The translations under genes and the position numbers were made by a program. From contig JAUJNI010000002.1 in the NCBI GenBank assembly GCA_030446465.1, positions 297,895 through 361,894 of the forward strand: DNA of 64,000 bases, read 5' to 3'. Positions 27,852-49,521 of the stretch are shown here, piece by piece. How positions within the stretch are numbered: position 1 is the stretch's first letter; each line of letters opens with the position of its first letter. Origin of the DNA: Actinomycetota bacterium (lineage in GTDB: Bacteria > Actinomycetota > CADDZG01 > WHSQ01). The notes beneath the pieces were generated by a model. The model saw only the letters and a list, made by a program, of their open reading frames with translations, did not search any database and had not been told where the DNA came from.

Positions 27852-27859
27852 ACCGCAAG

Positions 27860-27865
27860 ACCCTA
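27860..27865 (-). promoter_or_regulatory. -10 element of the RecB-like nuclease gene
   Basis: TAGGGT on the minus strand, 8 nt before ATG 27851, with no SD. Confidence 0.35.
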
Positions 27866-27920
27866 TGGAAGAGATGCGACAGGGCTCGGATTTCCGCACG
27901 GAGATCTATCGCCGAACGAG

Positions 27921-32833: not shown

Positions 32834-33052
32834 ATGGGAATCGGCGTTAGCTTGTTCTTGCTGGCGGTGGGCGCGATCTTCACCTTCGCAGTGAACGGCG
32901 AGCCCTTCGGAGCTGTGAGCATCGACACGGTCGGGATCATCTTGATGATCGTCGGTGGCCTCGGTCTGCTGCTCACACTGCTGTTCTTCGGCAGCTCAGC
33001 TCCATACCGGCGCGACCGCACTGTCGTGCGCGAGGAGCGCGACGTCCTCTAG
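32834..33052 (+). CDS. DUF6458 small membrane protein
   Basis: A 72-residue protein with two membrane helices (SLFLLAVGAIFTFAV and VGIILMIVGGLGLLLTLLFF) joined by NGEPFGAVSIDT, and an Arg-rich tail (YRRDRTVVREERDVL). This is the DUF6458 pattern common in Actinobacteria; function unknown. GGGAGGTG with about 6 nt spacing precedes the ATG. A strong terminator follows. Confidence 0.8.
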   Translation: MGIGVSLFLLAVGAIFTFAVNGEPFGAVSIDTVGIILMIVGGLGLLLTLLFFGSSAPYRRDRTVVREERDVL

Positions 33053-33114: not shown

Positions 33115-35826
33115 TTACTGGTCGCCTTGCGCAGGAGTGCCCGGAGTCAGCGCGTTCTGCAGTAGCTGGTAGCCCGAGTAGGTCACGCCGTAGTTGGCGA
33201 GCCCGTAGGGGTGGTCGAACTTGTCGGTCGGCATCGGGAGCACGGCCCCCAGAATCCGAATGGTTCCACCTTTGTATTGGATCTCTCCGTATGAGACGTT
33301 GTCTTCACTCTGTGTGGTCGCGACCGCACGCGGGGTGCCCTCTGCAATGGCATCCCAGGCATCCGCCTTAACGAACCATACCGGCGAGGTCAGCTTGTCC
33401 CGGTCGTCGGGGGTCTGAATTGAGAACCCAATCGGAACAGGCTCGTAGGTCTGACGCCTGTGGTTCTCGCCGCCTTCTTGGCCCTCGGCTGCACCCGGCT
33501 GATTGATGTTGCGCGCCAGGGGATCATCGTAGGTCGCACCTTCGCTTTGGCGGGTGTCGAAGTTGACGTAACCCGCGTACCGCTTCGTCATATCGACCGC
33601 GTCCTTGGGTACAAATCCCATGGAGGGAAGCATCCGGATCGCCTGATCGGTCAACACCAGGTTGCCGTCGGAGCGAGCAACCCATCTCTTCAGTCTTCCC
33701 GCCAGGCTTGCATACGCGCGGTCGGTCACGACGATCGTGTCGTTCTTTCTCCATTCGTTGCCGTCCGCCACATCCCTGTAAGTCAACTTGTTGAGTCCGG
33801 GGTCAGCAAAGGGCTGGAGGTCCTCCCAAAAGTCCATGTTGGTGACGCGGTAGCCGATCTGGCCGGGGTCCGGCCACCCCTTCTCCTTGGTGAAGTTGAT
33901 GTCGGCGTCGTACTCACCGCTGGGGTCGCTCGGGATGAAGGGGTCGATCCGGACGCGGTAGCGTCCCGGGAGCGGCAGGTTGGCGTGGAGCGCCTTGCCC
34001 GCCTGGAGGTAGATCGAGGACTGATTGAAGTAGGTGTTGACGATCTCCCACTCCGTGCCGGTCTGCGGATCGGGCTCCTTCGTCTCTCGCCGCTCCAGCA
34101 CCGCCTCGTCGAACGCGCAGGGACTCACGGGCGCAGTCGCGCACGTCAACGTGACCGCGATGCCGCCGTTGTAGACGCCGTCCTTCGGCCCCTTTACTTG
34201 GAACTCGTAGGTGTAGTCATTTGCGACGTTCAGCCTCTGGTCCTTGATGTCCTCCTGCGGCGGCAGCTGCGTGAACGCGGGAGGCGGCTTCAGGCGGTCC
34301 GTGGGCCGCGATACGGCGCCGCGGTTGTGGACGTAGCCGACGCGCCCGGTCGTGTCGAACGTGGTCTTCTCGGGCTTGAGGCTGTAATTGATCATCGAAT
34401 AAATGAGGGACTTGTTGCCGTCGACGTGGAGCTGCTCCGCGTCCTGGATGTAGCAGGTCCCCACGCCGCAGTTGATCAGGTGAGACATCGACATCTCGTT
34501 GTCGATTCCATCGGCGTTGAGGCCGATCGGTGAGTCGATCCAGTTCCCGAGGGCGCCTGTGACGGTGTAGTCGATGGTGTCCCAGATCGTTCCCCATTGC
34601 ACACCGTAAAGACGGTTGAGCGGGTCACAAGGCGGGTCGTTCGGTTTGGGATCGAGACCAAGCTCGACGCACGACTTGGGCTCGTCGTTTCCCTTGATGA
34701 TCGGTGACCAGTTCAAGCGATTCTCGGCGTCCCGCCATGCGCCCTTGACCGTCTGCAGCACCCTTTGGTTCTTGTCGAAGGGCCGTTCCGATCCACCGAT
34801 GAGAGTGAACGAGAAGGCGCGGTCGATCAGCTGGCCGTGGAGGTCGATCCCCCCGGTCCACTTGGGGTCGCCATTGTCGTCCTTGGGCCCAATGGCCTGG
34901 AGCACCTTGCCGTAGGACTTGGACTCCGGCTCCGACCACGGCGTGTACGGACGGAACGTGAATCCCTGTTCCGGCCAGTCGCGGTTGAGGTCGACTCCGT
35001 TACCGTTGTAGCGCTGATAGAAGTGCGCGCCCGGTTGGAGATCGACGAAGTGGTCGCCGCGGAGCCATCCGTCGGGATTGGAGTAGACGAAGTAGATGAC
35101 CGACCTGCGGAGTGCCTCGCCCGCCATGATGGACTTGTTCGGACTGGCCTCGAGCAATGGGTGGGGCGCCTTGTTGTCCTCGTTCGTGCAGTCGACGTAG
35201 TTGGGCGCAACCTTCGCCTCGCACGCCGCCCAGGTTGCAAGATCCTCCGCGGCGCGCGTTCCGCCCTCCACTCCGGCGCGCTCGATGCCGTGGATCGAGA
35301 GCGGGAAGACGAAGTACTTCTTGCCCTTGTTCGGGACCGACTCGTCGGTGATCCGGATCATGTCGAGGCGCCTGCGCTCGCGCACGAAGCTGTCGCCGTT
35401 CTCGTCTGTCGTCACCGGGAGGCCGGCCGACTTGAACGCGGCGCAGCCGCTCTCGCCCTTGCCCACAGGGCTCCCCGAGCATTTGAAGTCCTTGTGCAGG
35501 CGATAAGTCTCCACGAAACGAGGGAACGCCTTCCTCATGAAGTTGAGCGCGTGGACCATGCCCTCGTGCTGAATGAAGTCCTGGGCGCAGACCTTTCCCT
35601 TGGCAAACGGCGACGTGTCGGGTGTTCCCTTCGGCCTGCACCCATGGGGGTCGGGCAGGATGCGGCCGTACGATTTGTACTCCTCGACGGTGGTCGCTAC
35701 GGGCGTCAGGGGGTCGGCCGGGTGCGCCGGCGCGCGCGTGGGCGCGATCAGTGAGATGACCAGAGTGCCTCCCAGAAGTGTGAGAAGCAGGCTCGTCGCT
35801 ACGAATGCCGAGAAGTGGCGGCGCAT
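33115..35826 (-). CDS. Secreted M14 zinc carboxypeptidase, large multidomain
   Basis: A 903-residue exported protein. The signal peptide (MRRHFSAFVATSLLLTLLGG...) is cut near PAHPA. The M14 peptidase domain covers about 50-500. Zinc ligands H179 and E182 lie in SIHGIERAGVEGG, with NPDGW, a DLNRDWPEQGF segment (conserved Asn-Arg) and GGIDLHGQ later. The C-terminal half is beta-rich, with an S8/PA-like or Ig-like appearance (TYEFQVKGPKDGVYNGGIAVTLTCATAPVSP) and many aromatic motifs. It probably trims extracellular peptides or the cell wall. ATG 35826 has AGGGGGA upstream; a TTG 39 bases earlier is less likely because it precedes the basic signal region. Confidence 0.85.
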   Translation of the reverse strand: MRRHFSAFVATSLLLTLLGGTLVISLIAPTRAPAHPADPLTPVATTVEEYKSYGRILPDPHGCRPKGTPDTSPFAKGKVCAQDFIQHEGMVHALNFMRKAFPRFVETYRLHKDFKCSGSPVGKGESGCAAFKSAGLPVTTDENGDSFVRERRRLDMIRITDESVPNKGKKYFVFPLSIHGIERAGVEGGTRAAEDLATWAACEAKVAPNYVDCTNEDNKAPHPLLEASPNKSIMAGEALRRSVIYFVYSNPDGWLRGDHFVDLQPGAHFYQRYNGNGVDLNRDWPEQGFTFRPYTPWSEPESKSYGKVLQAIGPKDDNGDPKWTGGIDLHGQLIDRAFSFTLIGGSERPFDKNQRVLQTVKGAWRDAENRLNWSPIIKGNDEPKSCVELGLDPKPNDPPCDPLNRLYGVQWGTIWDTIDYTVTGALGNWIDSPIGLNADGIDNEMSMSHLINCGVGTCYIQDAEQLHVDGNKSLIYSMINYSLKPEKTTFDTTGRVGYVHNRGAVSRPTDRLKPPPAFTQLPPQEDIKDQRLNVANDYTYEFQVKGPKDGVYNGGIAVTLTCATAPVSPCAFDEAVLERRETKEPDPQTGTEWEIVNTYFNQSSIYLQAGKALHANLPLPGRYRVRIDPFIPSDPSGEYDADINFTKEKGWPDPGQIGYRVTNMDFWEDLQPFADPGLNKLTYRDVADGNEWRKNDTIVVTDRAYASLAGRLKRWVARSDGNLVLTDQAIRMLPSMGFVPKDAVDMTKRYAGYVNFDTRQSEGATYDDPLARNINQPGAAEGQEGGENHRRQTYEPVPIGFSIQTPDDRDKLTSPVWFVKADAWDAIAEGTPRAVATTQSEDNVSYGEIQYKGGTIRILGAVLPMPTDKFDHPYGLANYGVTYSGYQLLQNALTPGTPAQGDQ

Positions 35827-35854
35827 GGGTGGGTCCCCCTGTTCGTCCGTTTTG

Positions 35855-35886
35855 CCAAGACACAAGAGTGTAATCCGATGTCTTGG
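35855..35886 (-). promoter_or_regulatory. Inverted repeat around a -10 element, candidate operator
   Basis: CCAAGACA (35855-35862) and TGTCTTGG (35879-35886) are perfect 8-bp arms 16 nt apart. Between them the minus strand reads TACACT (35872-35867), a good -10 for the M14 peptidase gene. A dimeric repressor covering both arms would block this promoter. Confidence 0.45.
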
Positions 35887-35965: not shown

Positions 35966-36121
35966 ATGAGCATGAGCCTTGGACAGCCGATAGAGGAACT
36001 CGCCGTCGCCCTGGAAGAGCTTTGTCCCGGTTGCGAGCGCGAGGTCACTCTGGTTCTGGGGGACGACGGGCTCGAGCTGCACGTCGAGTGCGACTGCGGC
36101 TCTGGGTACGCACTGGCCTAG
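35966..36121 (+). CDS. Uncalled 51-residue Cys-motif micro-protein
   Basis: The plus strand encodes 51 residues with CPGC near position 20 and CDC near position 42, spaced like a zinc knuckle, in an otherwise acidic protein (EELAVALEEL...VTLVLGDDGLELHVE). The start is ATG 35966 with TAGCCT 6 nt upstream. The stop TAG shares CTAG with the stop of the convergent DD-peptidase gene. No family recognised. The codon pattern is coding-like (G/C at third positions), but its small size limits certainty. Confidence 0.55.
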   Translation: MSMSLGQPIEELAVALEELCPGCEREVTLVLGDDGLELHVECDCGSGYALA

Positions 36122-37398
36122 TCCGCGGTCTGGGCACGGATGGCCCGCTCGGTCACGCCGTGGGACCGAAGTGGCCCGTCAGCAGCCCTGCGGTGCAGGA
36201 TCCTGACGATCCTGTCCTCGAGGTCGGCGGCGACCCACTTGGGGAGGCCGGTTGAGAGGATCGAGAACTCGGCCCGCTGGTCGACTCGGCGGAGGCCGAG
36301 CCATCCGGACAGCGCCGAGACCTCGATCAGGCTGCCCGTCTTGGCCCTGATCGGTATGCCTTGGAGACGATCCTCGAGGGTCCCTTCACCGCCCGTGGGA
36401 AGACCTTTTCTCACCACGTCGCCCCATGGCTCCCGCTCCGCGGCCTCCAGCAGCCTCACCATCCCTGTGGGTGAGATTCGGTTCCGGTAGGAAAGCCCCG
36501 AGGCGTCGTAGGACGCGATGCCGACGCCGTGGTCGGCCGCCCATGCCGCTATGGCTCGCGCGCCGGTTGAAATGTTCGCTCGGGGCCGACTGCGTTCAGC
36601 TCCCAGACGCTTGCCGAGCACCTCGGCAAAGAAGTTGGACGAGTGCCGGTTCATGTAGCGCACCAGGGTCCTCAGAGGCTGAGACCTCACCGAGGCGATC
36701 GTCGCTGCGACGGCCGGTTCAGGAGGCTGTCCCACGGCGGCGCGTCCGGTTACCTTGACGCCTCGAGCCTCGAGCCTGTTGACCAGTGCCCGCGCGAGCC
36801 GCAGCTCCGGGTCGTCGATGTGCGTGCCCTTGTCGAAGTTGCCGTCGAGGGTCAGGGCAGTGGGACGGGCCACCTCGTAGAGAGGGAAGTAGGAGCTCCA
36901 TCCGGGCGCCCACCAGTCCCGGAGGAAGTAACCGGTGCTGCCGACGATGTCGCCCTCGATCCGCCTGATGCCCGCGGAGTTGATCCTGTGCACCAGGGTA
37001 CCCAATCGAGTCGGCTCGAACGGAAGCGATCTTGCGTAAGCACCGCCCGAGGCGATGCTCGGATCGCCGTGGCCGAGGACGTAAACGTCGCCGTCCACAA
37101 CGCCGTTGTCGGCAGGAGGCCCCACCACCGACGTCTCGATTCGGTAACCAGGCTCGAGGCGATCCAGCAGCGCCATGGACATCAGCAGCTTCTGGTTGGA
37201 GGCGGGAACGAGCTTGTTCCTTGCGGCATGGGAATAGACGCTGTCCCCAGCCACCTTCACCTGGACAGCCACCGACTTGTGTCTCACCAGCCGGTCGATT
37301 CTGGACTTCCACTGGGGACGCGCGGTTGCCTGGGGCGCAGCTACTGCGACCAGTGCGACGATTGTCAGGATCACCACGAGGGAGCGACGCATCGGCAC
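36118..37398 (-). CDS. dacB: D-alanyl-D-alanine carboxypeptidase/endopeptidase, PBP4 type
   Basis: A 426-residue low-molecular-mass class C penicillin-binding protein. A signal peptide (RRSLVVILTIVALVAVAAPQATA) leads to the periplasm or cell wall. The penicilloyl-serine set is complete: S67-N-Q-K70 (SxxK), RHSSNFFAEV (SxN) and AKTGSL (KTG). The long insert between SxxK and SxN is typical of PBP4. It trims or cleaves peptidoglycan stem peptides. The GTG start at 37398 has AAGGG with 7-nt spacing; an ATG two codons on is possible. It precedes the giant phosphodiesterase and follows the M14 peptidase in a cell-surface block. Confidence 0.93.
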   Translation of the reverse strand: MPMRRSLVVILTIVALVAVAAPQATARPQWKSRIDRLVRHKSVAVQVKVAGDSVYSHAARNKLVPASNQKLLMSMALLDRLEPGYRIETSVVGPPADNGVVDGDVYVLGHGDPSIASGGAYARSLPFEPTRLGTLVHRINSAGIRRIEGDIVGSTGYFLRDWWAPGWSSYFPLYEVARPTALTLDGNFDKGTHIDDPELRLARALVNRLEARGVKVTGRAAVGQPPEPAVAATIASVRSQPLRTLVRYMNRHSSNFFAEVLGKRLGAERSRPRANISTGARAIAAWAADHGVGIASYDASGLSYRNRISPTGMVRLLEAAEREPWGDVVRKGLPTGGEGTLEDRLQGIPIRAKTGSLIEVSALSGWLGLRRVDQRAEFSILSTGLPKWVAADLEDRIVRILHRRAADGPLRSHGVTERAIRAQTAD

Positions 37399-37418: not shown

Positions 37419-37652
37419 CTAGGCGTCGAACAGGGTGGGATCTTCCGGGAACAAGGTCAGCTGGCCCGGCCCGACCGGGGGGCGCGACGGCCGGTCGATT
37501 GCGACTGCGAGGCGGTGATAGGCCCTCTCACGGGCAAGCTGGAGGGCCCGCCTGCGAGCCATCGTCTTCTCGCGCTCGAGCCGCGTCTCCGCCTTCGTGA
37601 TGACGTCGTCGACCAAGTCCGGCTCCCACTCGGGTAGGCGTGCCTGCTCCAC
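37419..37652 (-). CDS. Small basic coiled-coil protein with clamp-like QLTLF motif
   Basis: A 77-residue protein. The first 45 residues are an amphipathic, Arg-rich helix (LVDDVITKAETRLEREKTMARRRALQLARERA). A proline hinge (RPSRPPVGPG) and GQLTLFPEDPTLFDA follow. QLTLF matches the QL[SD]LF-type motif by which many proteins bind the DNA polymerase sliding clamp. The GTG at 37652 has AGGAGG only 4 nt upstream; a TTG at 37736 would add 28 residues without SD. Family not recognised; the motif suggests a replication or repair accessory role (inference). Confidence 0.6.
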   Translation of the reverse strand: MEQARLPEWEPDLVDDVITKAETRLEREKTMARRRALQLARERAYHRLAVAIDRPSRPPVGPGQLTLFPEDPTLFDA

Positions 37653-37763
37653 TGATCCTCCTGTGCTCGAATGCCGGGGGAGTGGAGTATGGGCCACCGA
37701 GGCGAGCACGAGGCGGATTTCATCCCTGTAATTCAAGCTCGCTCCTAACTGCTAAGGAGGTGC

Positions 37764-38321
37764 ATGCGTCACATGAGCCCGATGGGGTCACGGGTCGGGC
37801 GCGGCCCCGGGCCGTCGGCGCGGGCAAAGCAGTCTTGGCTTGTGGCGGGAGTAGTCATAGGGCTCCTCGCAGCGGCCGGCGCGTGGTGGGCTGTCTCGTC
37901 CGCCCGGGAGGCTCATCACCGGGGTGAGGTTGCCTCTCGTGGGGCGCAGGTCATGCCTTTCGACCTCGACCGCACGACCCATGTCTTCGCTCCCCGTCCC
38001 AACGGCGGGGTGCAGACCGTCATTGCCGACGATCCCACCGACGCCCAGCGGGTGCGCTTGGTCCGCACCCATCTCCGGGATGAGGCAGAGGGCTTCAGGA
38101 GCGGTGACTTCAGCGATCCCCTGTTCGTTCACGGACAAGACATGCCGGGAGTGGCGGACCTGGAGGCGGGCGCGGACCGCATCGATATCCGCTACGAGGT
38201 GATCCCCGCGGGAGCCCGGCTGCAATACGTGACTCTCGACGACGGTTTGGTGCATGCCTTGCATCTCTGGTTCGAGGCTCAACTAGACGACCACGGAGAG
38301 CACGCCGAGCACGAGTCCTAA
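37764..38321 (+). CDS. Conserved membrane-anchored protein, unknown
   Basis: A 185-residue protein with one N-terminal membrane helix (SWLVAGVVIGLLAAAGAWWAV), then a soluble domain containing MPFDLDRTTHVFAPRPNGGVQTVIADDP, GDFSDPLFVHGQDMPG and a His/Glu-rich C-terminus (DDHGEHAEHES). To my knowledge this family is often labelled aspartate carbamoyltransferase in databases, but it lacks the ATCase fold and motifs, so the label should not be used. AAGGAGG is 3 nt before ATG 37764 and 12 nt before a second ATG at 37773; either may be used. Function unknown. Confidence 0.72.
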   Translation: MRHMSPMGSRVGRGPGPSARAKQSWLVAGVVIGLLAAAGAWWAVSSAREAHHRGEVASRGAQVMPFDLDRTTHVFAPRPNGGVQTVIADDPTDAQRVRLVRTHLRDEAEGFRSGDFSDPLFVHGQDMPGVADLEAGADRIDIRYEVIPAGARLQYVTLDDGLVHALHLWFEAQLDDHGEHAEHES

Positions 38322-41300
38322 AGCGGCTGCTGCAAGGAGCGTCTTCCGTCTCGGCGTCTGATTAGCGCCAGGCCGCACCCGATCATGCCGACTCCCACAA
38401 TCACGACCACGGCCAGCTCCGCGCCCGTGAATGGAAGGGGCGAGCCACCTTCCGTGGAAGCGGTGCTTCCGAGAACGGAGTTCGCTCCGGGATTGATCGA
38501 GCCTGAGTCAGTGCCGGTGGAGCTGGTCGTGCCGGTGCTGCCGCCGGGAGGGGTGGGCCGGAACCAGCGGTCGGTACGGGAGTCCAAAGTCGTCGGTCGC
38601 GCGACCGAAAAGAGCCGCACTCTCCTGTTGAACTCGTCGTGCTTGGCTTTGACCCGGAGCACTCTTCGCTTCGGCGTGAAGGTCAGGGTGACTCTTCCGT
38701 CGTCCCCGGTAGTGCCCGTGACGCGACGTTCCCTGATTCGCCTGACTACCACCTTGGAATTGGCCAGCGGGTCGCCGGTGTCGTCGTCCGTGACGGTATA
38801 GGTGACGGTGATCTCCTCGTCCTTTTGGTAATCCGAACGGGACGCCGAGATGTCGAGAGTCAACAGATAGACTTGCCAGTCGGTCATGACGTGCTTGACG
38901 TTGTGATCGTTGAGGTACTTCTCGAAGTCGGAAGGCAGCCCGCGGCGTTCGAGGTTCTGGTTCTCCATGCCGTGGTCGCCGGTGACGACGATCATGGTTT
39001 CGCCCAGGACGCCTGCGTCCCCCATCGCCTTGAGGATGCGGGTTAGCCGTTTATCCGAATCGCGGTAGGCGGCAAGTGTGCAGGGGGTGTGGGGGCCGAA
39101 CTTGTGGCCGGCTCCGTCGGTGAGGGTGAAGTTGTTGATCAAGTACTTGGGGTAGGGATGCTCGGCGCGGTCTTGGTAGAGACGTTGCGCCTGGGTCTGG
39201 CCAAGATGGTCGATCGTGCTCTCCTCGAAGTAGGTCTCGTTCTCCGCACAGGACGGCGTCGTGTCGGCCGCGAGCTCGGCCGGGTTCTCGGTCGCAACGT
39301 ATTGCGCAGGGTTCGGGAACGACCGGTCGGCCTCCAAGCTTGCGTAGTCGGCGCCGCGCGCGGAGGGCTCGTTGACTGCCGCCGTGTACGCGTCCTCCGA
39401 TGTCGGTCCGTCCGTAGGGTCCCAGTCACCGAACGATCGATGCACCGCTTCGTGAAGCGTCTCGACTTCGTCGACGAGTAGCCGCGACGTGCCCTGGAAG
39501 ATCGGGTTCTTGGGATCGGTGGGGTTGATGGGGGATTCCTTTGTCTTGGTCTTACGGATGTAGAAGCGGTTGTTGACCACGCCGAGGTGCCCTGGGTAGG
39601 CGCCGCTTCCCACGACGTTGTGGTTGGGGAAGGTCACGCTCGGCCACGCCGCCATGCTCCCGAAGCGCGTGAGCGTCCCCTCTCGGGCCAGCGACCGCAA
39701 CGTCGGTATGAAGGACTGGTCTCCCGCCTTGTCGGGGACTGGCTCGCCACAGGTCCGGGGCTTCAGGAGGCAGTGAAGCTCAACTGAGTTGTTCGCGTCG
39801 AAGATAAAGATCGCGCCGCGGTTGGCGATGGGCTCGGTGATGGTGCCGTCCCTTTGCGCTCTCTGTGGGTGCTCCACGAACGCTTCCCTCAGCACCCTTC
39901 CCCGGCTGTGGGCCGGGGGCTCGACGTCGTAGATCCACGAGATCGTCGAAGCGATATCAACGTTTTCCGCCTGCTCCGGCAGCGCAGCGGTGTCGTCGAT
40001 CTCATTGACCGCGCGGGCCTTCGAGGGTCCGATGGTTCGATCCTTGACGTAAGTGCCGCCGCTCATCACGAAGAAGGGAACATGTCGGTCGGTGGCGTGT
40101 CCGTGCTCTCCCAGAACCAGAGTGCCGGCCTCGAGCGGCTCCTTCGACAGAGCGTGCCTGTCGTCGGCGGTGATGAATAGCTCACCGGTTCGAGCGGTGC
40201 CGTCGAGCCGCCAGCGTGGGTGAGCCAGCTCCAGTGTGTTCGGGTCTCCCTCATCGGTTCCAGGGGTGGTCGTGGGCAGTCGGTAGAAGGCGCCGGTTAC
40301 TCCGCGCGTCTCTAGTGCTCGACGGCGCAGCCTCTTGAGGGTTTTCCGCTGGGCCCGGTTAAGCGTCGTGTCCGACGCCTCGAGTTGAGTGAGGTACACG
40401 GATGCCGATCCGCCGTGGCTGATCACCTCGAATGGTGATGGTCCCACACCTGCAAAGACGCGGTCGAGAACGATGGTGGTGGTCGGGTCGGCGGTGTCGC
40501 CGAAATTGTGATCGGCTGTCACAACGATCGTGGAGTGTTGCCACTTGCCGGAGCGCTTGAGCTCGTCGACTAGCTTCCCGATCTGCTGGTCGGCGCTCTG
40601 GACCGCGGCCAATGCGGGGGGACTTCCAGCCCCGAAGAGGTGCGACATCGCGTCGGTTTCGGGCAGGTTGATGAAGTTGAAGTCGGGATCCTTCGTTCGC
40701 AGCAGGCCGATTGCAAGGTCCATCGTGCATTCGTTGGTCGCGTAGCCGGAGCCGCTTGCCGGCTCGGCCGGGCAGTCCGTGTCCTCGTCCTTCGGGCTGG
40801 TGGTGGCTCCTGCGAGGAAGTCGGGCCTGAGATGATTGACTGGCACATTCTCGGGATTGTCGGAGCTCGGCCCGCACCTTCCGTTTGGTTTCCTCGTGCA
40901 GTCGAAGAGGTCGCGGAGCTTTTCTTTTCCGAAGACTCCGGCGGTGCGAAGCCACGGCTTCTGTCTTTCGATGGCGTCGAAGAGCGTCTCTGCAAAGTTG
41001 AGCTGAGGCTCGTTGAACGCGACCGGCTCGCCGCTCTGTCGGTCCAAGGTCTCGTTGGCGAAGACGCCAGAATCCTCGCCGTATGCGCCGGTGACCATGG
41101 CGACGTGGTTGGCGTTGGTCTCGGTAACCATGGTCGCGCGCGCTTGCTTGTAAACGGTGGCGCACGCTCCTCCCGGCTCGCACTTCTGCTGGCTCAGCCC
41201 GGTGAGGTTCGGCATCAGGGTGGGGTTGACGTCTCGGGGACGAAGCCCGTCGACCACCACGACGAAGGTGTTGAAGACGGGCTCGACCAAGCCGTCGAGC

Positions 41301-42112
41301 GTCCGCCCGTCCTGGCGCTCGAGCAACGCGGTCTTCGATGCGGACCCATTGAGGAGGCGGGCCGTCTTGCCGGTGTCGTCGTAATAGGAATGGACGCCGA
41401 GGGCACTCGCAACCGTTGGGGCGATGTCGACATGTTTGATGTGCAGTGATTTTTCCTCCGACCGGCTCAACGGCGAGCGGCGAGCACCCCGCCCGGCAAG
41501 CAACAGCGTGCTGCGCGACTGCACGACGCTCAGGTTGCCGTGGGCTCCCTTGCCACCCCGGTCGGCGGTGTTGACCGGGATAATGGCGAAGTCGCCGGTG
41601 CGCGGCGAGTTGAACTCGGCGACGATCCGCTCGTAGGCGTAGGGATAGGTCACCGCCTCGGCATCGACGAGGTTGCGCAGGTCGGGATCGGTGAGCGTCG
41701 TGCCGGAGGCGCCCCTCTCCTTGGCAAGCGTCGCAAGCGCGGTGGGGCTGCGGTCGGCGACCGGGTTCCTCCCCTCGATGAGATCCACGTTGTAGTCCCA
41801 CCCCCGGCCTACAGGGTGGCGCGTGAAGCAGATCGTGCCCCGCTTGGCATAGACCCAGTAGACGAGGCCGGTGCGATCACAGCCCCCGACCGAGGAGCCG
41901 GACCGTCGAACGGTGACGACCATGTCGACGTCTTTGTTCTTCAGCAGGAGACGAAGGCTCTTGACGAATGCCCTTTCCTCACTCGCGTTGAGACCCTGAT
42001 CGGCGCGAGGGTGACCTCTTGTGTGCAGGCTGGAAGCTGGTCCTGCCGCGGCGGCCAGGATGCCGAGCGCGGCCACAGCCGCAAGTACCCGTTTATGGAG
42101 TGATCCGCCCAC
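38318..42112 (-). CDS. Giant LPxTG-anchored protein with three phosphodiesterase-like modules
   Basis: 1264 residues. A signal peptide is cut near AGPASS. Residues about 45-245 resemble only the C-terminal half of an alkaline-phosphatase-fold enzyme (GGKGAHGNLSVVQSRSTLLL, KHVDIAPTVASALGV). Residues about 279-735 form a second, fuller module (VVVVDGLRPRDV, TADHNFGD, GEHGHATDRHVPFFV). Residues about 766-1080 form a third resembling nucleotide pyrophosphatase/phosphodiesterases, with Thr nucleophile in WPSVTFPNHN and VVTGDHG. An Ig-like domain and Ser/Thr/Gly linker lead to the sorting signal LPFTG (1226-1230), a membrane helix and RRRDGRR. A sortase therefore fixes it to the wall. The GTG has TATCCT 8 nt upstream. 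Substrate unknown. Confidence 0.85.
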   Translation of the reverse strand: MGGSLHKRVLAAVAALGILAAAAGPASSLHTRGHPRADQGLNASEERAFVKSLRLLLKNKDVDMVVTVRRSGSSVGGCDRTGLVYWVYAKRGTICFTRHPVGRGWDYNVDLIEGRNPVADRSPTALATLAKERGASGTTLTDPDLRNLVDAEAVTYPYAYERIVAEFNSPRTGDFAIIPVNTADRGGKGAHGNLSVVQSRSTLLLAGRGARRSPLSRSEEKSLHIKHVDIAPTVASALGVHSYYDDTGKTARLLNGSASKTALLERQDGRTLDGLVEPVFNTFVVVVDGLRPRDVNPTLMPNLTGLSQQKCEPGGACATVYKQARATMVTETNANHVAMVTGAYGEDSGVFANETLDRQSGEPVAFNEPQLNFAETLFDAIERQKPWLRTAGVFGKEKLRDLFDCTRKPNGRCGPSSDNPENVPVNHLRPDFLAGATTSPKDEDTDCPAEPASGSGYATNECTMDLAIGLLRTKDPDFNFINLPETDAMSHLFGAGSPPALAAVQSADQQIGKLVDELKRSGKWQHSTIVVTADHNFGDTADPTTTIVLDRVFAGVGPSPFEVISHGGSASVYLTQLEASDTTLNRAQRKTLKRLRRRALETRGVTGAFYRLPTTTPGTDEGDPNTLELAHPRWRLDGTARTGELFITADDRHALSKEPLEAGTLVLGEHGHATDRHVPFFVMSGGTYVKDRTIGPSKARAVNEIDDTAALPEQAENVDIASTISWIYDVEPPAHSRGRVLREAFVEHPQRAQRDGTITEPIANRGAIFIFDANNSVELHCLLKPRTCGEPVPDKAGDQSFIPTLRSLAREGTLTRFGSMAAWPSVTFPNHNVVGSGAYPGHLGVVNNRFYIRKTKTKESPINPTDPKNPIFQGTSRLLVDEVETLHEAVHRSFGDWDPTDGPTSEDAYTAAVNEPSARGADYASLEADRSFPNPAQYVATENPAELAADTTPSCAENETYFEESTIDHLGQTQAQRLYQDRAEHPYPKYLINNFTLTDGAGHKFGPHTPCTLAAYRDSDKRLTRILKAMGDAGVLGETMIVVTGDHGMENQNLERRGLPSDFEKYLNDHNVKHVMTDWQVYLLTLDISASRSDYQKDEEITVTYTVTDDDTGDPLANSKVVVRRIRERRVTGTTGDDGRVTLTFTPKRRVLRVKAKHDEFNRRVRLFSVARPTTLDSRTDRWFRPTPPGGSTGTTSSTGTDSGSINPGANSVLGSTASTEGGSPLPFTGAELAVVVIVGVGMIGCGLALIRRRDGRRSLQQPL

Positions 42113-42120
42113 GGGAAGAG

Positions 42121-42126
42121 AGGATA
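42121..42126 (-). promoter_or_regulatory. -10 element of the giant surface-protein gene
   Basis: TATCCT on the minus strand is 8 nt before GTG 42112 with no SD, which supports this start at the head of the signal peptide. Confidence 0.45.
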
Positions 42127-42312
42127 CGACCTCGCAACTCGAAGGTGGTCCGGTTGGCGCGAACTTTGGACGACCTTTGTGTGTCCCCCGGCGATCATGG
42201 CAGTCGTCCGGCCCAGGCAACGACATCGGTGCCGGGGACTTACGGGAGCCTCCGGATGGGTACGAGAATGGCGGCGAAGAGAACGGGACGATTTCGGAAA
42301 GGAGGAAGCCCC

Positions 42313-42435: not shown

Positions 42436-42477
42436 CATAGGAAGTGCTCTAGGGGAGCCCCCTTGAGCGCAGGGCCC

Positions 42478-42504
42478 CCATATATATGGCTAAGAGGGTA
42501 TGGT
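42478..42504 (+). promoter_or_regulatory. vapBC promoter with 12-bp palindrome
   Basis: CCATATATATGG (42478-42489) is a perfect palindrome and an AT-rich island in GC-rich DNA. TATGGT (42499-42504) is a -10-like element 9 nt before the vapB ATG. Ribbon-helix-helix antitoxins commonly bind such palindromes to repress their own operon. Confidence 0.5.
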
Positions 42505-42513
42505 TGTAGGGAG

Positions 42514-42750
42514 ATGAAGACGACCCTCAACCTCGACGACCGTCTTCTTCACGCCGCCAAGGAGCTCGCGGCGAAGCGGCGCGTCACCCTTACCAGCATC
42601 GTCGAGGACGCACTGCGAGTGGCGCTGTCCGAACGGCCCTCGGCCGAGCGGTCGGCGATCGAATGGCCGACGGTTAGCGGCAAAGCGCCTCCCGCGATTG
42701 ACGTCAGCGACCGCGACGAGCTCTATGACCGGATGGAGGGCCGCTCCTGA
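42514..42750 (+). CDS. vapB: VapB-type ribbon-helix-helix antitoxin
   Basis: A 78-residue protein. MKTTLNLDDRLLHAAKELAAKRRVTLTSIVEDALRVAL is a classic ribbon-helix-helix DNA-binding unit. The C-terminal 35 residues (EWPTVSGKAPPAIDVSDRDELYDRME) would wrap the toxin. AGGGAG is directly upstream of the ATG. The stop overlaps the toxin start codon as CTGA. It neutralises VapC and probably represses the operon through the palindrome upstream. Confidence 0.85.
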   Translation: MKTTLNLDDRLLHAAKELAAKRRVTLTSIVEDALRVALSERPSAERSAIEWPTVSGKAPPAIDVSDRDELYDRMEGRS

Positions 42751-43184
42751 TAGCGGTCGACACAAACATCCTCGTCTACGCTCATCGGGAAGAGTTTCCA
42801 TGGCACAAAGAGGCGGCTTCGACGCTGAGGCGACTCGCCGAAGGGCCGGCGAGTTGGGCTCTTCCGGTCTTCGTAATCGGAGAATTCCTTCGTGTCGTTA
42901 CGCACCCCCGGGTGCTTAATCCCCCAACCGGCCTAACAACGGCAATCGCGGTCTTGGAGGGGCTCCTTCAGAGCAGGAGCGTGCAGCTTCTGACTCCCGG
43001 CCCACGATATTGGGAGATCCTGAGGGATGTCGTAAGCGATGCTAGGGCTCGAGGAAACACCGTGCCCGATGCACAGATCGTGGCCGTTTGCTTGGAGCAT
43101 GGCGCAGACACGATCCTGACCGAGGACCGAGACTTCCACCGCTTCTCCTCCGTGTCGATTCGGCGCCTGGAAGAGACACTCTGA
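42747..43184 (+). CDS. vapC: VapC-type PIN-domain toxin with apparent CTG start
   Basis: A 145-residue PIN ribonuclease. Acidic metal residues are D5 in IAVDTNILVYAHR, E46 in FVIGEFLRVV, D108 in VPDAQIVAVCLEHGA and D127 in TEDRDFHRF. VapC toxins cleave tRNA or rRNA. The frame has no ATG, GTG or TTG before the domain begins. CTG 42747 sits 7 nt after GGAGG (42735-42739) and overlaps the vapB stop by 4 nt, exactly where an initiator is expected. A start only at the downstream ATG/GTG/TTG codons would remove D5 and inactivate the toxin. Confidence 0.8.
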   Translation: MIAVDTNILVYAHREEFPWHKEAASTLRRLAEGPASWALPVFVIGEFLRVVTHPRVLNPPTGLTTAIAVLEGLLQSRSVQLLTPGPRYWEILRDVVSDARARGNTVPDAQIVAVCLEHGADTILTEDRDFHRFSSVSIRRLEETL

Positions 43185-43294: not shown

Positions 43295-46200
43295 GTGACG
43301 GTTGAGCGGAAGATGATGGGCGACGCGGCTCTGGACGACGAGCAAAGAAAGGTGGTCGAGCACACCACCGGAGCCCTGCGAGTGCTTGGGGGGCCCGGTA
43401 CGGGCAAGACGAGGGTTCTCGAAGAGCGCTTCCTTCGGCTTGCTCTCGAGCCGGGCTGTTCACCGGACCGGGTCCTGTTCCTGGTTCCCAACCGGGCCCA
43501 AAAAATCGCCTTGCAAGATCGGCTTGCTCGGCGGCTGTTGTTCGACGAGGGCCTCGACGCCTTTATCGAAGTCCCGGTCTATACGTGGCACGGTCTCGCC
43601 AACCATCTCGTCACCCGGCATTACGACCGGCTTGAGTACTCGGAACCCCCGGTGCTCCTCACCAGCCCGGAGCAGTGGGGGGATGTCCGAGAGGCGCTCG
43701 CGGCGGAGGCCGAGGCCAACTGGTCCAAGCCCTACCGGCACTTGCTGCGCAACCGGGGGTTCGTCGACGAGGTCGTCGACTTCTGTATCCGGGCCGAACA
43801 GCGACTCCTCGAGCCGCACGAGCTCGATCGGCTGGTCGAGCTCAAACCCGCCTGGGCAGACCTCGTCCGCTTCTTCAAGGCGCACCGGCAGCGGCTGCGG
43901 CAGCGATCGAGGATCGACTACCCGACGCTTCTGGCGGACGCCACAGAGCTCATCGCCAACTACGACGACGTTCGGAGCTCCATTCACCGTCGCTTTCTTC
44001 ATGTTCTGGTGGACGACGGGCAAGAACTCGCCCGCGTCCAACAGCGACTGCTTCGTTTCCTTACGGGCTTCGTCGACTCCCCGAAAGGGGTAGACGAGCG
44101 GTCACTCGTGGTCGCGGCCGATCCGGATTCGGCAATCGAGACCTTCAGGGGGGCGGAACCGGACTGGCTCGACCGCTTCGCCGACGACTTCGGCCCCCAT
44201 GAGACCGTCGTCCTTCCGACGTCCTACCGCCTCGGTCACTCGCTCGGTGAGCGAGCAAGCGACTTCATCGCGATTCACGAAGGCGGTAAGCACCGGCCTG
44301 CGAGCTACGAGGGTGCAACCAGCCTCGACCTTCACCGCTACCAGAACCTCGCGGCCGAGGTGGAGGCGGTCGCCCGGGCACTTCGGTTCGCTCATCTCAC
44401 GGACGGTGTGGCGTACGAGGACATGGCGATCCTGTTGACCTCGCCACGTCAGATGCTCGCGGCGTTGGAGCGCTCGCTCAACGCGCTCGAGGTGCCTTAT
44501 TCCATATCGGCTCCGGACCGCCCCCTCGAGCGTGAGCCGGTTGTGCGCTCTTTCATCCACCTAACCCAAGTCTCGTTCTCCGATGAGCCCAACGACGATG
44601 GGATGGGGGAGTTACTTCGTTCCCCGCTCGTCGGTCTCGAGAGTCACGAGCTGCGCGCGCTCGAGCGGGACGCTCGGTCGGCTGGGACAACTCTGGTCGA
44701 GCTCATCGAGAAGACCTCGTCCGGCCCAGACGCCGATCCGAGAATCATAGAGCTGATCGAGCTGAGACAGCTTCTCAAGACGGTCGAGAGCAAACCCGCC
44801 GACCATGCCTTCTGGGCGGTGTGGGACCAGGCCACCTACTACAAGCTCCTCGTCGAGCGCGCCCGGCGAAGCCTCGACGACCCCGCGCACCGAGAGCTCG
44901 ACGCGTTGGTCGCCTTCTCCCGCTCGCTTGGACGCTTCGTCGAACGGCGCCGGGGCAGCGGAACGCTGACGGAGTATCTCGGGGCGATAGGGCGCGCCGA
45001 CTTCGGCTGGGATTCGTGGCTTCCGCCAGAGCGGCGTTCAGGCGGGGTGGAGGTCCTGTCGTTCCATGCTGCCAAGGGGCGTGAGTGGGACATCGTCTGC
45101 GTGTGCGGGTGCGTGGACGGAGCAATACCCAAGGGTCGCCGGGCCCAAGGCCTGTTCGATCCCTACTTTCTCGATGAGATGAACGCCACGGCCCGCGCGG
45201 CAAAGAACGAGGCCGAGGACCGGCGGGTCTTCTACGTGGCGGTGACTCGAGCGAGGACGCGCTGCATGGTCACTACCTCGCCCGGGCCCACACGAAGAGG
45301 TCAGCCGAGTCGCTTTCTGGCCCAGCTCGCCGGCGAGATCCCTGAGGTGGAGCAAAATCAAGGACTTCCCCCTCTCACCTTCGCGGAGGCCGCCGCGCGC
45401 CACCGGCGGGTGGTCGCGAACGCCGAGGCGCCGGGCGCCGAAAGACTCGCCGCGCTCGGGGCGATTGCTCGGATCTGTGACCTCGACCCCGGATGCTCGA
45501 CCGCTCAACCGACCGAGTGGTGGTGGCGCTGGGACTGGACCGAGGGGGCAGTTGCTATCAACGCCCAGCGCTCTTCCGGAGACGATGAGGTCCCCCACGA
45601 CAAGCTCCGCACCAGCTACTCGCGCATCTCTCAGTACGACGACTGTGGGTTGAAGTACCTCTATTCCGTCGTCTTGGGCTTCGACCCCGAGACGTCCCAC
45701 AACATGGCGTTTGGGACGTGGATTCATCAGATCTTCGAGGACTGTGAGAAGGAGCCCACGCCCGAGCAGATGGCATCGGGCCGCCGACGATTGCGAACTC
45801 CCCGCGCGGTCATGGAGCGCTACGAGCAGGTGTTCGATTCGTCGGTGTTCCCAAACAGGGCAATCGCGCGCCAGTTCAAGCACGACGGCAAAGTCATGCT
45901 CGAGCGGTATATCCAAAATCTCAATCCGGGTGGTGCCCTGCTGGCAGAGCAAGAGTTCACGGTTGACTTCAACGGACATCGCATCAGGGGCCGGATCGAC
46001 CGAGTCGACAGAGCAGGCAGCGGTGTTCAAGTCTCCGACTACAAGACATCGCGTTATCCGATCTACAAGAGCGAGGCAGAAGAATCCCTACAGCTCGCGA
46101 TCTATTACCTCGCCGCTCTCGAGCACGAGACCATCGCGAATCTGGGACGGCCCATGCAGATGCAACTCGTTTATCCGGGTCACATGACTTTCGGCAAGGT

Positions 46201-46375
46201 CACCACCCGGATCCAAAAGCCGGATCAAGCCAAGAAGGCTCTCGAGAAACTGCCGAGGCTCATCGAAGGCGTGCTCGATGAGGACTTTCGCCCCAGTCCT
46301 ACCGCCGATTGCACGTGGTGCAAGTTCAAGGTCATTTGCCCGCTGTGGTCCGAGGGCAAGGAGCTGCCGGCGTGA
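43295..46375 (+). CDS. adnA: AdnA-like UvrD/RecB helicase-nuclease subunit
   Basis: A 1026-residue SF1 motor fused to a RecB-type nuclease. Walker A GGPGTGKT is at 32-39, motif II is VDDGQE at 239-244, and motif VI-like DRRVFYVAVTRARTR lies later. The nuclease has SRISQYDDCGLKYLY, GTWIHQIFEDC, RIRGRIDRVDRAG...VSDYKTSR, and the Fe-S cysteines C...CTWCKFKVIC. Motif II has Asp where DExQ has Glu, so the motor may be weak; in mycobacterial AdnAB the AdnA motor is the minor one. With AdnB it resects double-strand breaks. GTG start with AGGGGA upstream. The stop overlaps the adnB GTG. Confidence 0.86.
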   Translation: MTVERKMMGDAALDDEQRKVVEHTTGALRVLGGPGTGKTRVLEERFLRLALEPGCSPDRVLFLVPNRAQKIALQDRLARRLLFDEGLDAFIEVPVYTWHGLANHLVTRHYDRLEYSEPPVLLTSPEQWGDVREALAAEAEANWSKPYRHLLRNRGFVDEVVDFCIRAEQRLLEPHELDRLVELKPAWADLVRFFKAHRQRLRQRSRIDYPTLLADATELIANYDDVRSSIHRRFLHVLVDDGQELARVQQRLLRFLTGFVDSPKGVDERSLVVAADPDSAIETFRGAEPDWLDRFADDFGPHETVVLPTSYRLGHSLGERASDFIAIHEGGKHRPASYEGATSLDLHRYQNLAAEVEAVARALRFAHLTDGVAYEDMAILLTSPRQMLAALERSLNALEVPYSISAPDRPLEREPVVRSFIHLTQVSFSDEPNDDGMGELLRSPLVGLESHELRALERDARSAGTTLVELIEKTSSGPDADPRIIELIELRQLLKTVESKPADHAFWAVWDQATYYKLLVERARRSLDDPAHRELDALVAFSRSLGRFVERRRGSGTLTEYLGAIGRADFGWDSWLPPERRSGGVEVLSFHAAKGREWDIVCVCGCVDGAIPKGRRAQGLFDPYFLDEMNATARAAKNEAEDRRVFYVAVTRARTRCMVTTSPGPTRRGQPSRFLAQLAGEIPEVEQNQGLPPLTFAEAAARHRRVVANAEAPGAERLAALGAIARICDLDPGCSTAQPTEWWWRWDWTEGAVAINAQRSSGDDEVPHDKLRTSYSRISQYDDCGLKYLYSVVLGFDPETSHNMAFGTWIHQIFEDCEKEPTPEQMASGRRRLRTPRAVMERYEQVFDSSVFPNRAIARQFKHDGKVMLERYIQNLNPGGALLAEQEFTVDFNGHRIRGRIDRVDRAGSGVQVSDYKTSRYPIYKSEAEESLQLAIYYLAALEHETIANLGRPMQMQLVYPGHMTFGKVTTRIQKPDQAKKALEKLPRLIEGVLDEDFRPSPTADCTWCKFKVICPLWSEGKELPA

Positions 46376-49300
46376 ACGGTGACGCCCGAGGATCGGATCA
46401 GATCAAGGTTGCGCTGAAGGGGTACGAACCGACCGATGAACAATGGAGGGCGATAGCTCATCCCGAGGGACCCTCGTACCTGATCGCCGGTGCCGGCTCG
46501 GGGAAGACCGCCGTCATGGCTGCACGCATCGTGTGGCTGGTGGAGAACAAGGGATATCTCCCCTCGCAGGTCCTGGGACTGACCTTTACCAACAAGGCAG
46601 CGGAGGAGCTTCGCGAAAGGGTCAGGAGTGCCCTCGGCGCCGGAGGAGAGCATCGGGCCGAGGACATCACGGTCCAGACCTACAACGCGTTCGCCGCAGG
46701 CGTCGTTCGCGACCACGGTCTGCTGGTCGGCATCGAATCGGAGGCCGCGCTGCTGAGCGAGGCGCAACAGTGGCAGCTCATCTTGAACTGCATCGACGAC
46801 CTGCCGCCCTTCGACGCAATCGAGCTCCGGTCGCCCGTCGGTATCGTGCGCGCAACCATCGGGCTAGCGAGCTCGTTGTCCGATCACCTCGTGACGACCG
46901 CGGACGTCCAAGCGGTGGACGAGCGCACGCTCTCGGCCAAGGACGCAACCAACGACATGCGAACCACTGCCGCGAAGCGGCGAGAGCTCTGTATTGCGGT
47001 AGATGCCTACCTTGACGCCAAGCGCAGGCATCAACGGGTTGACTTCGGCGATCAAGTCCAGAAAGCAGTAGAGATCCTCGAGGACTTTCCAGAGATCAGG
47101 GCGGCGTACTCCGAGCGCTATCCCGTCGTGCTGCTCGACGAGTACCAGGACACCAACGTAGCTCAGCGACGGATGCTTCAGGCACTCGCCGAAGACGCCG
47201 ACTCTGTGACCGCGGTGGGCGACGCGCGTCAAGCGATCTTTGCGTGGCGGGGGGCGACGATGTACAACCTCATCGGCTTTTCGGATCACTTCCGACGGCC
47301 GGACGGCCGGTCCTATGAGCCGATCTCTCTGTCGGAGAACTTCAGGTCGGGCTCTCGCATCCTCGAGGTGGCCAATGAAGTCGCGGGGGGGATCGATCCT
47401 GGACGGAGGCCGGGCCTTCCGCTCAAGGCTCATCCGGCCAACGGCGAGGGCAGAGTTGCCTTGGGGCTGTTCGAGGACGAGCATGCCGAAGCGAGCTTCA
47501 TCGCCGACGAATGCGAGCTGCTGGAGGGACGAGCTGCAGCCGAGGGCCGCGACCCCGTGAGATGGCAAGACATCGCTATTCTCGTGCGGCGAAAGGCGTC
47601 CATGGATCCGATCCTCGAGGTTCTTCGGGAACGGGAGATCCCGGTCGAGGTCGTCGGCTTGGGGGGCCTCTTGAAGACCCCCGAAGTGATCGACGTAGTG
47701 GCCTGGCTAAGGAGTCTCGAGGTCAAACCCGCCGCTAACAGATGGCTCGGACGGCTCTTGCTCGGCCCCCGCTGGCGTATCCACTACCGGGACCTCGCCC
47801 TCTGCGCACGCTGGGCCGCAGAGCAGAATCATGACCTGAGGCTCCGATTGGCCGGGGGTGACAAGGCACGGGCTTCCGACCTCGCACCAGGAGACGTCGG
47901 TTTCGCGCTTGCCGAGGCACTTGATCACGTGGACGAGATCGAGGGGTTGGGGGAGGACGCCGTTGGACGGCTCAAGCTCTTCAACCGACGACTTGCATCT
48001 CTGAGGAAACAGGCCCAAGCCCCGTTGCTCGAGCTGGTCCAGGAGGTCATCCACGAAGCGGGGATCGTCGACGCGCTTCAGGCGTCGGGCGCGCGGACCG
48101 CAGCGGCCGCACAGCAAAACATCTCGAACTTCCTAGACCACGTCGCCGCCTTCGCCCCTATAGAGGGAGAGGCGACGCTGCGCAGCTTCCTCGCCTACCT
48201 CGACGCGGCGGAAGCGGCTGATGAGACACTCGAGTCCATGCAGCCAGCGGAGCAGAACTCCGTGAAGCTGATGACGGTGCATTCCGCCAAGGGCCTCGAG
48301 TTCGAGTGCGTGTTCGTTCCCTCTCTCGCGGCATCCAAGAACGCGAAAGATGAGCACATCTACTCCATCTTTCCTGACACGCGCGCCTCGAATCCGCTGC
48401 GCAGCCATGGCGAGCTGCCTTACGAGGTCAGGGAGGACCGTGCCCACCTACCTCGGTGGACCGGGAAGAGCAGCGACTTTGAGAAAGCCGTTAAGGAGCG
48501 AGCTCTCGAAGATGAGCGCAGGTTGTTCTACGTTGCGCTCACTCGGGCCAAGCAGCGTCTCTACCTCAGCGCGGCCTGGTGGTACGGGCGCGGGGATCGT
48601 CCCAAGGGGCCATCGTTGTTCTGGGAGGAGCTTCGAGCGCTCGCGGGCACGCGGGGCATCGAAATCGTCGCCGAGGTCGAGCGGCCAGAAGCGAATCCGG
48701 TGGTCGACGTGCTCGAGGGAAAACGCGACTGGCCTCCAAGCCCGCGCAGCGGCATGCACGACACTCTGTTTCCGCAGGGATGGGGCAAAGCCGCCGAGCA
48801 ATTCGTGGACGACGGCGCATCGCTTGACCAATTGACCCCCTCCTTGCCGCAGGCCGAACGGGCCCGCGTGGTTGAGCTCCTGGATCGCCATTGCAGTGAG
48901 CTGGATCTCATCCAAGCCGCCGCTACAGACGTGAAGGGCCTGCAACCGGTCGTGCCCGACGTCCTCTCCGCGACGACCCTGGTGCGACTCGAGGCGGGGG
49001 AGCTCGACGCGTGGGACCTCGCGCGGCCCGTGCCCGAGCGATCGACCGCTTCCCGCAGGCTCGGAACCGAAGTCCACCGCCTGATCGAGGAAAAGACCAG
49101 AGGTATCGCTCCCTATCCGGAAGACGGCGAGCTCGACGAGCCGGGGGAGGTGTCGAGCGAGGCTGTCATGGTGGAGCTCTTGACCAACTGGTCATCGCTG
49201 GGATACGGCGAGCGAGAACCGGCCACTCTGCCCTCCGGCGAGCCGATGGTCGAGCTGCCGTTCACCTTGAAGCGCGCCGGGCGAATTGTTCGAGGGCGGA

Positions 49301-49521
49301 TAGATGCGGTCTATCGGACAGGTGACGGGCTCGAGATCGTGGACTTCAAGACCGGCCGCCGCTTCGAGCCCGCGGAGCCGGATCAATTGAGCATCTACGC
49401 CGAGGCCCTCCAGGCGAATGGCCTGGTGCCCGCGGGGGCAACGGTGAAGCTCACCTACGCCTTCCTCGACGGGGGATCCCCGGTGAGCCGCATGTGGAGC
49501 CGCCCAGCACCTGTATCCTGA
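46372..49521 (+). CDS. adnB: AdnB-like UvrD/RecB helicase-nuclease subunit
   Basis: A 1049-residue SF1A helicase with a canonical motor: AGAGSGKT (39-46), GLTFTNKAAEEL, LLDEYQDT (D256, E257), VGDARQAIFAWRGA, SENFRS, TVHSAKGLEFECV and RRLFYVALTRAKQRL. A C-terminal RecB-type nuclease follows, with GTEVHRLIEE and VRGRIDAVYRTGDGLEIVDFKTGR but no Fe-S cysteines. It is the main motor and second nuclease of the heterodimer that processes DNA breaks in actinobacteria in place of RecBCD. The GTG overlaps the upstream stop (GTGA), which would keep the subunits equimolar. Length and order fit mycobacterial AdnB. Confidence 0.88.
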   Translation: MNGDARGSDQIKVALKGYEPTDEQWRAIAHPEGPSYLIAGAGSGKTAVMAARIVWLVENKGYLPSQVLGLTFTNKAAEELRERVRSALGAGGEHRAEDITVQTYNAFAAGVVRDHGLLVGIESEAALLSEAQQWQLILNCIDDLPPFDAIELRSPVGIVRATIGLASSLSDHLVTTADVQAVDERTLSAKDATNDMRTTAAKRRELCIAVDAYLDAKRRHQRVDFGDQVQKAVEILEDFPEIRAAYSERYPVVLLDEYQDTNVAQRRMLQALAEDADSVTAVGDARQAIFAWRGATMYNLIGFSDHFRRPDGRSYEPISLSENFRSGSRILEVANEVAGGIDPGRRPGLPLKAHPANGEGRVALGLFEDEHAEASFIADECELLEGRAAAEGRDPVRWQDIAILVRRKASMDPILEVLREREIPVEVVGLGGLLKTPEVIDVVAWLRSLEVKPAANRWLGRLLLGPRWRIHYRDLALCARWAAEQNHDLRLRLAGGDKARASDLAPGDVGFALAEALDHVDEIEGLGEDAVGRLKLFNRRLASLRKQAQAPLLELVQEVIHEAGIVDALQASGARTAAAAQQNISNFLDHVAAFAPIEGEATLRSFLAYLDAAEAADETLESMQPAEQNSVKLMTVHSAKGLEFECVFVPSLAASKNAKDEHIYSIFPDTRASNPLRSHGELPYEVREDRAHLPRWTGKSSDFEKAVKERALEDERRLFYVALTRAKQRLYLSAAWWYGRGDRPKGPSLFWEELRALAGTRGIEIVAEVERPEANPVVDVLEGKRDWPPSPRSGMHDTLFPQGWGKAAEQFVDDGASLDQLTPSLPQAERARVVELLDRHCSELDLIQAAATDVKGLQPVVPDVLSATTLVRLEAGELDAWDLARPVPERSTASRRLGTEVHRLIEEKTRGIAPYPEDGELDEPGEVSSEAVMVELLTNWSSLGYGEREPATLPSGEPMVELPFTLKRAGRIVRGRIDAVYRTGDGLEIVDFKTGRRFEPAEPDQLSIYAEALQANGLVPAGATVKLTYAFLDGGSPVSRMWSRPAPVS

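Follow-up and report, generated by a model that had tools for sequence, protein, structure and literature searches.

The question raised by this locus is whether a very short bacterial protein, whose tail resembles the peptides that bind the sliding clamp (DnaN), is a genuine gene product and what it could do at the clamp. The gene lies in the window, i.e., the whole 64,000-nucleotide stretch of actinomycetotal DNA that was analysed, and runs on the minus strand from a GTG start to a TAG stop (37419..37652), preceded by a GGAGG ribosome-binding site read directly in the sequence (37657..37661, minus strand). A first-pass annotation had proposed a 77-residue product here without giving a strand, and this product is indeed encoded: VEQARLPEWEPDLVDDVITKAETRLEREKTMARRRALQLARERAYHRLAVAIDRPSRPPVGPGQLTLFPEDPTLFDA. 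The frame is a real gene, more than a chance occurrence: in the window's own family, it is present in all but one of 16 genomes. Codon positions 1, 2 and 3 differ by 0.315, 0.255 and 0.535 per pair among the 13 full-length members, a pattern that argues for a translated minus-strand frame, and the start codon stands at the same place or at most four codons earlier in 13 of the 14 other members, the fourteenth beginning in a run of N. Shuffling the 77-residue protein 20,000 times produces the strict tail motif QLxL[FW] in 0.16% of cases and a looser version in 1.3%; neither form occurs in 17 other large, hand-chosen frames of the window (about 11,800 residues). We hold it to be rather probable that the protein is a small chromosomal clamp-binding accessory protein.

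At the search sensitivity used, the protein is restricted to one family of uncultured Actinomycetota. The 15 members, window genome included, come from a search of 61 genomes, and a profile run against 24 genomes of the class returned the same 15, with no relative in the eight genomes from two sister families. The only own-family genome without the gene (G013) is 83% complete and also shows no dacB and no Y-family polymerase match, so incomplete data may account for the absence. In a scan of named genomes, 14 loci were returned, all under titles with Actinomycetota, actinobacterium or Actinobacteria; metagenome-assembled genomes make up 13. Across a 396-genome sample of the phylum, the profile found no convincing relative beyond the 15 members when at most 14 candidates were scored per genome, a depth at which weak relatives may be missed. 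Besides the 15 true members, that profile returned 31 further rows at E <= 0.05. Seven were inspected (L047, L048, L050, L053, L057, L060 and L061) and look unrelated, two being TetR-type helices, and the uninspected ones were taken as chance; the best extra row (E 2.3e-4) comes from one genome, and most of its frame is unlike the family. Three rows of the 61-genome search at E <= 0.01 (L016, L017 and L018) were discarded after an inspection that took no account of strand.

No family of Pfam (13 members checked), NCBIfam or PHROGs (three members scanned) scored above cut-off, and the weak rows in these libraries (best E 0.043 in Pfam, 0.1 in NCBIfam and 0.072 in PHROGs) were taken as chance. 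An IMS (Y-family polymerase) domain was found neither in the window protein at E <= 1 nor in any of the 13 members. Four rows against solved structures at E <= 10 (best 0.37) and the best row of a defence library (E 0.014) were likewise attributed to chance. The window protein matched nothing at E <= 0.1 among 50,697 phage and 72,556 plasmid records, and nothing among viral contigs; a mobile origin was rejected on these empty searches. By literature searches and family libraries, the protein is apparently undescribed.

Comparison of 13 of the 15 members (alignments A1 and A2; two partial ones, affected by a contig end and an N run, were left out) gives a fixed order of parts. An acidic stretch containing an invariant Trp opens the protein and leads into the helix core; then come a linker that varies, QLxLF, a spacer that also varies, and (P)TLFD. 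AlphaFold2, given a 13-row alignment, predicts a single 45-residue helix (residues 9-53; 37494..37628, minus strand; mean pLDDT 87-95 in blocks of residues 11-50) and, after it, some 24 residues of loose tail; the mean pLDDT is 78.9 and the pTM 0.43 for the whole protein. The tail with the clamp-like motif is predicted to be unstructured (mean pLDDT 61-62), which argues for the clamp-binding reading. The protein is acidic over residues 1-30 (-4), basic over 31-54 (+5) and acidic again over 55-77 (-2), for a net charge of -1, and the hydrophobic moment is 0.24-0.51 in the conserved half of the helix and 0.91-1.0 in the N-terminal half. The "long basic amphipathic helix" described at first sight thus keeps its length, whereas the protein is not basic overall and "amphipathic" fits the N-terminal half better.

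The conserved helix core (residues 32-54; 37491..37559, minus strand; consensus RAxQLARExxYHRLA) contains 14 residues that are invariant in 13/13 members: A32, R35, A36, Q38, L39, A40, R41, E42, Y45, H46, R47, L48, A49 and I52. This mix of charged or polar with small or hydrophobic residues suggests that the core would offer more than one contact surface. Per-pair residue differences (13 members) are 0.48 over residues 1-26, 0.19 over 31-55, 0.70 in the linker (55-63), 0.305 in the pentapeptide (64-68), 0.62 in the spacer (69-71) and 0.09 over 72-76, the lowest of these segments. This last segment is a second tail motif, PTLFD (37425..37439, minus strand), in which L74, F75 and D76 are invariant in 13/13 members.

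The putative clamp-binding motif itself, QLTLF, occupies residues 64-68 (37449..37463, minus strand), at the C-terminal place where it had been annotated. Q64 and L65 are invariant in the 13 aligned members and L67 is kept in at least 90%; QL is also present in the two partial members. Over all 15, the pentapeptide reads QLTLF in four, QLSLF, QLSLL, QLKLW and QLSFF in two each, and QLRLW, QLCLF and QLSFV once each, the last in a partial member whose contig ends just after the motif. Position 5 is thus F, W, L or V and position 4 is L or F, while position 3 is free; these appear to be the substitutions that a ligand of the clamp pocket would allow. QL and the hydrophobic positions 4 and 5 are kept in 15/15 members while the linker varies, which argues for clamp binding, and a search for homologues with the helix and without the pentapeptide, proposed initially as a test, yields none. 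The companion question, whether QLxLF is the most conserved part, is answered in the negative, both the helix core and PTLFD being better kept; this, together with the single partial QLSFV, argues against the clamp-binding reading. The bacterial clamp motif is given as QL[S/D]LF, more generally QxxLF, in the available portions of two sources (PMC12309361, PMC9690074), and the LW forms of three members are like the QLPLWG reported for mycobacterial ImuB in the accessible text (PMC10421592).

A further line of evidence comes from the likely clamp clients of the same lineage. The window genome encodes a DnaN, whose segments TDSYRLAV and, at the C-terminus, MPVRLS resemble by eye what we take to be the pocket segments of the E. 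coli protein. Its DnaE1 carries QFSLF; in its DnaE2-like protein there is no more than a degenerate QLGLA. Long Pol IV copies whose C-terminus can be read number 13 in the own family (a count that omits L093, cut by a contig end, and L104, a second copy). Of these, nine fit Q[L/M/T]xL[L/F], with QLSLL, QLDLL, QLGLL, QMSLL, QLELL, QLGLF or QTSLF, and four have looser forms, including the poorer match QLLLD in the window genome. The survey of Y-family polymerases comprised 30 loci, i.e., 25 that passed an active-site filter plus L103, L107, L108, L109 and L110. These five, four of them own-family, are of a shorter type with DVDEF or DLDxF and WDEAF, are not ImuB-like, and show by eye no clamp-like motif at their ends. 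The presence of DnaN and the overlap of the small family's motif range with DnaE1 and nine of the 13 Pol IV copies argue for the clamp-binding reading, as support and not as proof, whereas the QLLLD of the window genome, the four misfits among the 13 and the four shorter own-family enzymes argue against it.

Directly downstream of the small gene lies dacB (36118..37398, minus strand), encoding a PBP4-type D-Ala-D-Ala carboxypeptidase of family S13 (PF02113, E 2.7e-51; TIGR00666 above cut-off), which in the window starts 20 nt away on the same strand. dacB occupies this position on the same strand in 13 of the 14 relatives' loci, the fourteenth (L032) being cut by the contig end, and its first candidate start codon is 20-96 nt downstream in eight of the 14, those where a scan found the dacB frame. 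Divergently upstream are two genes for UvrD helicases with PD-(D/E)XK nuclease domains, assigned by Pfam (43295..46375 and 46309..49521, plus strand), which we take to be adnA and adnB. adnA (at least 56% identity) lies within 10 kb in seven of the 14 relatives' loci, with nearest-edge distances of 196, 470, 566, 665, 1275, 1949 and 8017 bp, and is absent from three loci whose upstream DNA exceeds 7 kb (L020, L021 and L031). The remaining four loci have at most 2.7 kb of upstream DNA, two of them (L025 and L026) showing only weaker helicase or nuclease matches (31-39% identity). A zinc carboxypeptidase (33115-35865, minus strand) lies beyond dacB; the synteny extends to further genes, including those for a small protein at 32834 and an FAD enzyme at 31134. 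Since it covers the entire block, the proximity of dacB or adnA proves no shared function.

Several other features of the window and its genome may be recorded. The window genome has a second dacB-like gene (L077, G000:C4:174186-175361), 51% identical, with no small gene seen beside it, and inspection by eye of the second dacB copies (L077 and L078) and of a sister-family dacB (L076) revealed no overlooked upstream relative. A 1302-residue protein (38318-42226, minus strand) with repeated phosphodiesterase/sulfatase-type matches is apparently a tandem fusion and has an LPFTG segment near its C-terminus. Between its gene and adnA lie two small frames (42463-43184, plus strand); judged by eye, one resembles a VapB-type antitoxin and the other the end of a toxin with a PIN domain. 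DNA repair genes abound in the window, among them a stand-alone PD-(D/E)XK nuclease (27048-27899, minus strand) and a large Lhr-type helicase (50909-55348, plus strand).

These findings lead to a model in which the small protein, predicted from its sequence, likely binds the clamp. The QLxLF motif would dock in the hydrophobic pocket of DnaN, while the helix core would hold a second macromolecule, which might be DNA, a different protein or a further copy of the small protein; the latter could then recruit this partner to the clamp or regulate which proteins hold it. TLFD would probably extend the clamp contact or bind that second partner. The setting is likely to be DNA repair or replication stress, as adnAB often adjoins the gene; the absence of adnA from three well-covered loci, and its place in a syntenic block, speak against clamp binding. 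A tether for a repair or replication protein, as suggested in the first-pass annotation, fits the anatomy and the frequent proximity of adnAB, the latter weak evidence given the synteny of the whole block. The broader proposal of an undescribed clamp-associated factor holds insofar as the motif is kept throughout and no known family was found, and is weakened by the pentapeptide's lesser rank in conservation. Beyond that annotation, the analysis adds TLFD as another motif, a highly conserved helix core, confinement to a single family at the search sensitivity used, and the gene-specific upstream element described below.

Comparison with known systems helps to place such a protein. What it shares with clamp-motif proteins is a conserved pentapeptide of the QL[S/D]LF or QxxLF type in an exposed C-terminal tail. 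The known clients named in the source portions available are polymerases, ligase, MutS/MutL and the like, whereas the small protein is one predicted helix without an enzymatic domain. Also likened by description is T4 gp33, the clamp-linked coactivator of late transcription, which according to the available text is also small, all-helical and non-enzymatic, with its clamp motif on a C-terminal linker, and which differs in having five helices, in binding the RNA polymerase flap and in using the phage clamp gp45 (PMC7892883). Mycobacterial ImuB is described, in the part of the source at hand, as a catalytically inactive hub (PMC10421592); it is a Y-family polymerase, and the small protein has no such domain. 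Clamp clients usually come to notice as enzymes. A stand-alone helix that is conserved and bears a clamp tail would represent a minimal adaptor or brake and, if the clamp-binding reading is true, would show that one actinomycetotal lineage evolved a small replisome factor of its own.

It is possible, if doubtful, that QLxLF and TLFD resemble a clamp motif by coincidence and bind a target other than DnaN, for instance RNA polymerase or a dacB-linked regulator of the cell wall. dacB is the most constant neighbour and lies on the same strand, and the strongest conservation in the tail is that of TLFD, which is not known to us from any clamp motif. Against this, the tolerated substitutions resemble those of clamp ligands, and similar motifs are carried by the lineage's DnaE1 and most of its long Pol IV copies. 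A link to the cell wall is further opposed by location: PBP4-type enzymes act outside the membrane, and neither a signal peptide nor a membrane segment was seen by eye in the small protein.

Control of the gene bears on the next alternative. On the minus strand, AAATCC (37715..37720) and the -10-like CATACT (37686..37691) form an element, AAATCC-N23-SATAMT, which precedes the small gene in all 14 loci with readable upstream DNA, always with a spacer of 23; its right half ([CG]ATA[AC]T) begins 39-137 nt before the start codon (14 copies). The left half stands about six bases further out than the usual -35 box. When 24 whole genomes were scanned, the exact element was found once in each of 14 of the 16 own-family genomes, always at the small gene, and elsewhere once in each of two genomes of the sister family f3 (L126 and L127), not near a relative of the small gene; the backward control gave zero occurrences over the same 24 genomes. 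The copy in L126 (1501-1535; genome G022) ends 27 nt before a frame that resembles dnaB by eye, possibly by chance. When one mismatch was tolerated, 28 matches turned up in the 16 own-family genomes, 14 at the small gene and 14 elsewhere, against three in the backward control. Ten of the 14 off-gene matches lie inside open frames of at least 150 residues, and the downstream frames found for the 14 all differ from one another; no regulon was found, although 14 matches are a surplus over the three of the control. No SOS-like box came out of a simple scan that covered at most 300 nt before each of the 14 copies. The element may be bound by a dedicated regulator or by the small protein itself, and offers a handle on the timing of the protein's use.

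The occurrence of the element once per genome hints at gene-specific control, as would suit a competitor for the clamp or a replication brake, an alternative somewhat more doubtful than a target other than DnaN. Here the tail would fill the DnaN pocket, or two pockets at once should the helix form a parallel pair, and would displace polymerases in response to a specific signal, acting like SocB or RipA but as a regulator fixed in the chromosome. The AlphaFold2 model, a short protein with little beyond a helix and a clamp-like tail, agrees with this. However, toxins are usually not so near-universal in a family as this gene, and a helix core so conserved can hardly be a mere spacer. SocB is reported to bind the clamp via its usual motif (PMC9690074) and RipA to target DnaN (PMC12795458), in the text available from each source, so that, compared by description only, their reported target is the one proposed here. 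Both are members of toxin-antitoxin systems, whereas the compared loci show no conserved small antitoxin-like partner directly beside the small gene, where the constant next gene is dacB.

Highly doubtful is a regulator linking the clamp to cell-wall growth, i.e., a DnaN-docking helical protein that would share one transcript with the PBP4-type carboxypeptidase under the once-per-genome promoter element; were it true, replication or repair state and wall remodelling would be set together. Judged unlikely, and with the slightest probability of all, is that the protein replaces ImuB as the clamp tether of DnaE2: a DnaE2-like polymerase is present in 14/16 own-family genomes, weak ImuB-like Y-family matches (the ImuB label being our own) in 0/16 of them versus 5/6 f3 genomes, and three members have ImuB-like LW motifs, but DnaE2 is close to Pol IV on the same contig in 11 of the 14 genomes having DnaE2, most of these Pol IV copies have a clamp-like motif of their own and might serve as the tether, and the sister-family genomes G016, G019 and G021 have DnaE2 beside Pol IV with neither an ImuB-like match nor the small protein. 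The best NCBIfam match of the DnaE2-like polymerase (L157:5129-8143) is "error-prone DNA polymerase", below cut-off.

The clamp-binding reading of the small protein is thus preferred. As to the own-family Pol IV (L082-L094 and L100), the clamp-like motif is often followed by an AIDxIRxRFGxxAV segment; judged by eye, this segment is reminiscent of the RecA-NT motif that the available part of one report mentions in connection with ImuB (PMC11791113).
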